Positions 18,243 through 18,508 of a stretch of DNA of 64,000 nt are shown in pieces. A model generated the notes under the pieces. It saw only the letters and a program-made list of their open reading frames with translations. It ran no database searches and was not told the DNA's origin. Origin of the DNA: Peptococcaceae bacterium BICA1-7 (GTDB taxonomy: Bacteria; Bacillota; Desulfotomaculia; Desulfotomaculales; Desulfocucumaceae); assembly GCA_000802095.1 (NCBI GenBank), contig JUEB01000015.1, positions 1 through 64,000 of the forward strand. The letters run 5' to 3'. The first letter of the stretch is position 1; the number at the start of each line of letters is the position of its first letter. Both the position numbers and the translations under genes were made by a program.

Positions 18243-18508
18243 ATAATTTAATATATAACCAATGTTGGTTAATATTGCGAAGGCGCTTTTTGAAATATCA
18301 AAAAGCGCCTTCTGTGCATAATTCGCTGCAGAATTCCAGGCAAGGGCGCTTTTTCCTAAAGATATGGAAATTTCTTTGGGAAAGCGCCCTTATGACTTTT
18401 GAAACGGGCATTGGCGCCCCGGTTTTGAGGATCCTCTCCCCCAAAAACTGGGGCGTCACTTTTTATTTTTAAAACAGTAATATTAAGCCAAATAAGGAGG
18501 AATATGAC
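18243..18508 (+). promoter_or_regulatory. nif leader RNA with ANTAR-type hexaloop hairpins and terminator
   Basis: Hairpins with six-base loops: P1 TAACC-AATGTT-GGTTA (18256-18271) and P2 GGGC-ATTGGC-GCCC (18406-18419), both with A1 and G4 in the loop, as in known ANTAR-protein targets. P2 overlaps the 5' arm of a terminator (18413-18470), so P2 and terminator exclude each other. Between them lie two long hairpins (18279-18312; 18342-18391) with related arms, and a second possible pair, AATTC-GCTGCA-GAATT (18320-18335) and AGGC-AAGGGC-GCTT (18338-18351), the latter overlapping the 5' arm of the second long hairpin. Inference: transcription runs into nifH only when an ANTAR protein stabilises the small hairpins. 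Confidence 0.68.
18413..18470 (+). terminator. Terminator inside the nif leader
   Basis: GGCGCCCCGGTTTT (18413-18426) pairs through G-C and G-U pairs with AAAAACTGGGGCGTC (18443-18457), followed by ACTTTTTATTTTT. It stands about 40 bases before the nifH start, so it must be bypassed for nif expression. Confidence 0.78.

Follow-up and report, generated by a model that had tools for sequence, protein, structure and literature searches.

The nifH leader of Peptococcaceae bacterium BICA1-7 is very probably a chain of ANTAR-target modules joined from an amtB leader and an older nifH leader

RESULTS

Layout of the nifH leader

The stretch of DNA that we analyzed, referred to here as the window, comprises 64,000 nucleotides of contig JUEB01000015.1. 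Its nifH gene is preceded by two promoters, three pairs of small hexaloop hairpins (modules 1 to 3, each with an upstream hairpin, P1, and a downstream hairpin, P2), two long hairpins (hp1 and hp2), and a final P2 that lacks a P1 of its own and overlaps the nifH-proximal terminator (Table 1). The original prediction, made from the letters of this DNA, had described a consensus sigma-A promoter, a P1 and a P2 with A at loop position 1 and G at position 4, a terminator overlapping that P2, a T-rich run and two long hairpins in between, and all of these are present. The promoter is our promoter 2, the P1 is that of module 2 (loop at 18261), the P2 is the orphan (loop at 18410), and the run, TTTTTATTTTT, ends ~40 nt 5′ of the nifH ATG. 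What had been missed is module 1 with its terminator (18126–18187), and the two inner P2 hairpins, of which that of module 2 overlaps hp1 and that of module 3 overlaps hp2, each with a P1 17–18 nt upstream.

TABLE 1 Coordinates of the features of the nifH and amtB-glnK leaders in the window (hexaloops in square brackets)
Feature	Position	Strand	Remarks
Promoter 1, TTGACA-17-TATCTT	18078..18106	+	5′ of module 1
Module 1: P1 GTTTC[AAAGCT]GAAAC, loop 18131-18136; P2 AGGC[GAGGCA]GCCT, loop 18149-18154	18126..18158	+	Pair scan and window-free model
Module 1 terminator	18154..18187	+	Hairpin 18154-18181, then T-run; shares bases with P2; strong U-tract; d +48.5
Promoter 2, TTGACA-17-TATACT	18208..18236	+	Promoter of the original prediction
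Module 2: P1 TAACC[AATGTT]GGTTA, loop 18261-18266; P2 GC[GAAGGC]GC, loop 18279-18284	18256..18286	+	Window-free model; homologous to module 2 of amtB leaders in relatives
hp1, hairpin of module 2	18279..18312	+	Perfect 15 bp; poor U-tract; d -12.2
Module 3: P1 AATTC[GCTGCA]GAATT, loop 18325-18330; P2 AGGC[AAGGGC]GCTT, loop 18342-18347	18320..18351	+	Top match of window-free model
hp2, hairpin of module 3	18342..18391	+	Poor U-tract; d -18.8; compensated pairs in same-genus leader
Putative fusion point, amtB-type leader/nifH-type leader	18398..18405		Breakpoint ~18400; two separate same-genus matches
Orphan P2 of nifH module, GGGC[ATTGGC]GCCC, loop 18410-18415	18406..18419	+	Own P1 absent
nifH-proximal terminator	18412..18470	+	Hairpin 18412-18458, then TTTTTATTTTT at 18460-18470
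nifH	18509..19327	+	
amtB-glnK leader, module 1: loops 54033 [ACTGGT] and 54051 [ACTGAA], terminator	54028..54092	+	
amtB-glnK leader, module 2: loops 54156 [GATGTG] and 54174 [GAGGGT], terminator 54171-54208	54149..54214	+	

The loop-to-loop distance between P1 and P2 is 17–18 nt in modules 1 to 3, as compared with 149 nt if the P1 at 18261 is paired with the P2 at 18410. G occupies position 4 of both loops in all three modules, and position 1 (P1/P2) is A/G in modules 1 and 2 and G/A in module 3. The P2 stem of module 2 is weak, with two sure base pairs only.

The TTGACA of promoter 1 is kept in all four aligned leaders. A palindrome, AGCACAACCTGGCTGTGCT, lies inside its spacer (18083–18101) and could be a DNA operator; one arm is altered in a genome of the same genus (G002).

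Specificity of the modules

Chance alone yields many single A1/G4 hexaloop hairpins (the + strand of the window has 113 with a stem of at least 4 bp), so the test had to be made on pairs. We therefore searched both strands of 463 kb, made up of the window and 22 loci with nifH, for pairs of hexaloop hairpins, P1 and P2, at a distance of 15–26 nt and with P2 overlapped by a terminator that ends in a U-run. The scan gave 25 modules with G at position 4 of both loops, as against 0–2 for each of the combinations A/A, C/C, T/T, A/G and G/A at that position; because the loci were picked around nifH, the density of modules is not a genome average, but this selection does not affect how G compares with the other bases. 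Position 1 was A or G in both loops of 24 of the 25 pairs, and a strict A at this position is not the rule in this clade. We also considered whether G1/G4 and A1/G4 loops form two classes, one for each of two ANTAR proteins, but mixed pairs are frequent (A/G 9 and G/A 4, n = 25) and there are no clean loop classes.

Within the window, the scan recovered module 1 together with its terminator and the two modules in front of amtB (54033/54051 and 54156/54174). When a U-tract was no longer required, the P1 at 18261 was found with the P2 at 18279 (18 nt), and the P1 at 18325 with the P2 at 18342 (17 nt). Since this relaxed scan has a high background, we used ten modules, all from other genomes, to train a covariance model that contains no sequence from the window (the window-free model). 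Its best five matches in the 64 kb are 18319–18352 (29.6 bits), 54150–54184 (27.0), 54027–54061 (23.6), 18255–18289 (23.3) and 18125–18159 (18.9), which are exactly the three nif modules and the two amtB modules. Across the whole genome, the next real match after these five stands before gltB. The model pairs 18261 with 18279, and the P1 of the original prediction therefore belongs to the P2 at 18279. Pair counts on the alignment of modules also favor the structure, but were given little weight because the sequences had been chosen for pairing.

Among the 113 genomes of the order, 48 have a match to the window-free model at E ≤ 0.01, and modules of this kind look widespread in the order.

Other modules and the regulators

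The terminators of the two modules in the amtB-glnK leader at 54 kb are both strong (d +35 and +27 by the d'Aubenton-Carafa d score, which we used for all terminators in an implementation of our own). The second of these modules (54150–54184) has G1 in both loops, against the published A1 rule, yet its terminator is strong.

Two response regulators with REC and ANTAR domains, of 193 and 197 aa, are encoded 10 kb apart in the same genome. They stand in a block, the gln/glt operon, with the order histidine kinase (PAS-HisKA-HATPase), ANTAR, glnA-like, gltB-like, gltB, gltD, ANTAR, glnA, glnA. Three further modules are found in it, one each in front of gltB, the second ANTAR gene, and the first glnA that follows it. 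The block occupies positions 3742–19349 of record L115 (genome contig C1) and thus unites the kinase and both ANTAR regulators with glutamate synthase genes and three genes of glnA type. Our list of modules, which rests on the covariance model and on targeted loci, is incomplete for those with long linkers. The presence of modules at nif, amtB and gln/glt supports one nitrogen regulon at the RNA level, in line with the proposal that nif and amt belong together in such a regulon, which would also include the gln/glt operon.

Two-part origin of the leader

Two relatives, Desulfocucumis palustris (L011) and Peptococcaceae bacterium BRH_c4b (L013), have an operon with the order amtB-glnK-nifH. The amtB leaders of both consist of a promoter, module 1, a second promoter, and modules 2 and 3, in the same order as in the window and with similar sequence, and modules 1 to 3 of the window are those of this amtB leader. 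The P1 at 18261 is homologous to the P1 of module 2 in these relatives, which has its P2 16–17 nt downstream. Their nifH leaders carry a separate module, TATAAC[AGTGTT]GTTATG - GGGC[ATTGGC]GCCC, with a loop-to-loop distance of 20–21 nt, and it is to the end of this separate leader that the window's last P2, identical as a hairpin, and its terminator correspond. A comparison with nifH leaders of related Peptococcaceae had been suggested as a check of the original prediction; it accounts for the last P2 and its terminator. The P1 at 18261 has its counterpart in the amtB leaders, next to a P2 of its own.

A search of 113 genomes of the order led to a same-genus genome, G002, as the only one in which positions 18101–18400 are nearly fully matched (85% identity, contig C85); the genome of strain BRH_c4b (G004) has a partial match of 70%. 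A different contig of G002 (C161, the same as record L010) separately matches 18402–18465, between the end of amtB and nifH. The genes upstream of the leader, HAD-like, DUF296-like and FprA, have the same order in the window and on contig C85. Adjacency of the two G002 contigs is inferred from the gene order of L011 and L013, not from a read junction. This type of amtB is present twice in G002: one copy is 94% identical to the amtB at 54 kb of the window and is preceded by two modules, and the other adjoins nifH. The window genome has one, of the first type, and does not have the nifH-linked amtB.

The leader of nifH is therefore made of two parts, an amtB-type leader and the end of a nifH-type leader, which G002 matches separately, and this points to the deletion of an amtB copy. 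Most likely, judging from these alignments, the nif-linked amtB was deleted, the two leaders were fused at ~18400, and the P1 of the nifH module was removed in the same event, so that the 134-nt gap between the P1 and P2 of the original prediction would be a by-product.

The hairpins in the gap were also considered as a mobile repeat, but no further copy was found in the genome. A long hairpin that opens with AGC[AAGGGC]GCTT and lacks a U-tract is found shortly before amtB in BRH_c4b (L013, ~7715–7765) and D. palustris (L011, ~7658–7705), and is conserved in both.

Terminator strength and predicted fold

By the d score, hp1 and hp2 are poor terminators and the nifH-proximal terminator is borderline (d -6.6), which leaves module 1 alone with a strong one. 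The counterparts of hp1 and hp2 in the G002 amtB leader are also weak (d -9 and -27), and the weakness of these two hairpins thus predates the fusion. The counterparts of modules 2 and 3 in L013 score +13 and +24; module 2 of L011 is poor (-20). Between the window and G002, the stem of hp2 has three doubly compensated pairs and zero mismatches, from which we conclude that the hairpin is probably still under selection. It is possible that hp1 and hp2 have a role other than classical termination, such as factor-assisted termination, pausing, or hiding of a P2. Across the genus, the two hairpins with poor U-tracts (window 18279–18391; L103 1675–1789) are kept as stems, one with three compensatory pairs.

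In the predicted fold of the transcript to 18423, hp1 and hp2 are closed, with the inner P2 hairpins hidden inside them, while the P1 of module 2 (pairing probability 0.97), the last P2 (0.64–0.95) and, in part, the P1 of module 3 (0.42) are free to form. A borrowed P1 is therefore possible for the last P2, most plausibly that of module 3. The tip of hp2, [ATGGAA], was considered as another candidate P1 for the last P2 and rejected, since in the homologue from the same genus the loop at this place is only three bases, GAA.

DISCUSSION

We are confident, on the strength of these comparisons, that the nif leader is a chain of ANTAR-target modules, in which an amtB leader (two promoters, modules 1 to 3) was joined, once the amtB behind it had been deleted, to what is left of the old nifH leader, its last P2 and terminator. 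A complete module consists of P1 and P2 as small hexaloop hairpins ~18 nt apart, with a purine at position 1 and G at position 4 of the loops, the P2 sharing bases with a terminator. At low cellular nitrogen, a phosphorylated dimer of an ANTAR response regulator, one or both of those from the gln/glt operon, would bind P1 and P2; the overlapping terminator could then not form, and RNA polymerase would read through to nifH. The anatomy fits this for module 1 and, given weak terminators, for modules 2 and 3.

How the last terminator is regulated after the loss of its P1 is where the readings differ. It may be leaky or without regulation, which the fusion might simply have left behind. Alternatively, it could form a split, non-contiguous ANTAR target in which the terminator uses a P1 borrowed across a closed hairpin that has lost its own function as a terminator, nif being rewired to the amtB leader; we put this forward tentatively, as a rather unlikely reading. 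In one form of it, the regulator would bind the orphan P2 (18410) and the module 3 P1 (18325) as a pair, over an hp2 that hides the P2 of module 3 and no longer terminates. With hp2 closed, the unpaired distance would be ~20 nt, within the linkers of 2–25 nt accepted for actinobacterial ANTAR targets (PMC8164766), and compensation has conserved the stem of hp2 and not its U-tract. However, the low probability predicted for the P1 of module 3 speaks against such a hand-over, as does the prospect of a leaky or unregulated terminator, and it is doubtful to a similar degree.

Less likely than these other ways of borrowing a P1 is the pairing at the heart of the original prediction, in which a single ANTAR site is made up of the P1 at 18261 and the P2 at 18410, brought close to each other by hp1 and hp2 as structural spacers. 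The predicted fold does hold this P1, hp1, hp2 and the last P2 together, and hp2 has been kept by compensatory changes despite its poor U-tract. Nevertheless, a P2 closer to this P1 is available at the canonical 18 nt, the homologous P1 of the relatives adjoins that same P2, and the P2 at 18410 is that of a nifH leader without its P1. No more than one genome has this arrangement, and the deletion accounts for it; furthermore, the linkers described by Ramesh et al. are short, and one of 14 nt already impaired induction through EutV (PMC3369931). We consider this pairing very unlikely.

It could also be argued that we are looking at ordinary terminators with chance hexaloops, module 1 ending the upstream exonuclease gene and nif being controlled at initiation. 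An intrinsic terminator behind a gene that ends at 18018 would be unremarkable, but the loop-position-4 control, the ranking by the window-free model, and the conserved order of modules at amtB in three other genomes make this explanation highly improbable. We give still less credence to a small-molecule riboswitch or to NifA/sigma-54 control, as no Rfam family reaches its gathering threshold in the window and a search of 17181–19101 for a -24/-12 element with up to two mismatches gave none near nifH. The earlier view that nif is controlled by antitermination in the leader and not by NifA/sigma-54 is supported in outline by the sigma-A-type promoters, the ANTAR-type overlap of P2 and terminator and the two ANTAR regulators; the pairing of hairpins on which it was based is not supported.

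The regulation of nif and amt by ANTAR proteins is not new as such. A study of 2012 already predicted that nitrogenase and ammonium-transporter genes are under ANTAR control, also in Desulfotomaculum acetoxidans. It reported targets in front of nitrogenase, amt, P-II and glt genes, with 13 in six transcription units in that one genome, and described how binding of an ANTAR dimer to P1 and P2 prevents formation of the terminator that overlaps them (Ramesh et al., 2012; PMC3369931). The modules described here resemble these EutV-type targets of Firmicutes and Proteobacteria in having a pair of hexaloop hairpins in which positions 1 and 4 of the loop are conserved, an overlap of P2 with an intrinsic terminator, REC-ANTAR regulators, and a place upstream of nitrogen genes; nitrogenase and ammonium-transporter genes are among those named across genomes in the same study. 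They differ in that position 1 may be A or G, in the tandem arrangement of modules, and in having one terminator with a P2 but without a P1 next to it and two hairpins with weak U-tracts. With the putative D. acetoxidans regulon they share the bacterial group, the occurrence of several modules per unit, and targets from many aspects of nitrogen metabolism. The leaders of D. palustris and BRH_c4b share the order of modules 1 to 3 and the identical last P2 hairpin, but there the two leaders are separated by amtB-glnK, every module is complete, and the U-tracts are mostly strong. Full-text searches returned no second paper on ANTAR control of nif beyond the 2012 study, and we found no description of a fused amtB/nifH leader in the literature searched.

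If the present reading is correct, transcript antitermination would govern nitrogen fixation in this Desulfotomaculum-like genome, as well as amtB and the gln/glt operon. The history of the leader is unusual and suggests that a single deletion can shift nif under the multi-switch leader of another gene. What would be new is the split site. Should the orphan P2 still be functional, ANTAR sites could be split across another structure, which would bear on how a dimer reads two hairpins.
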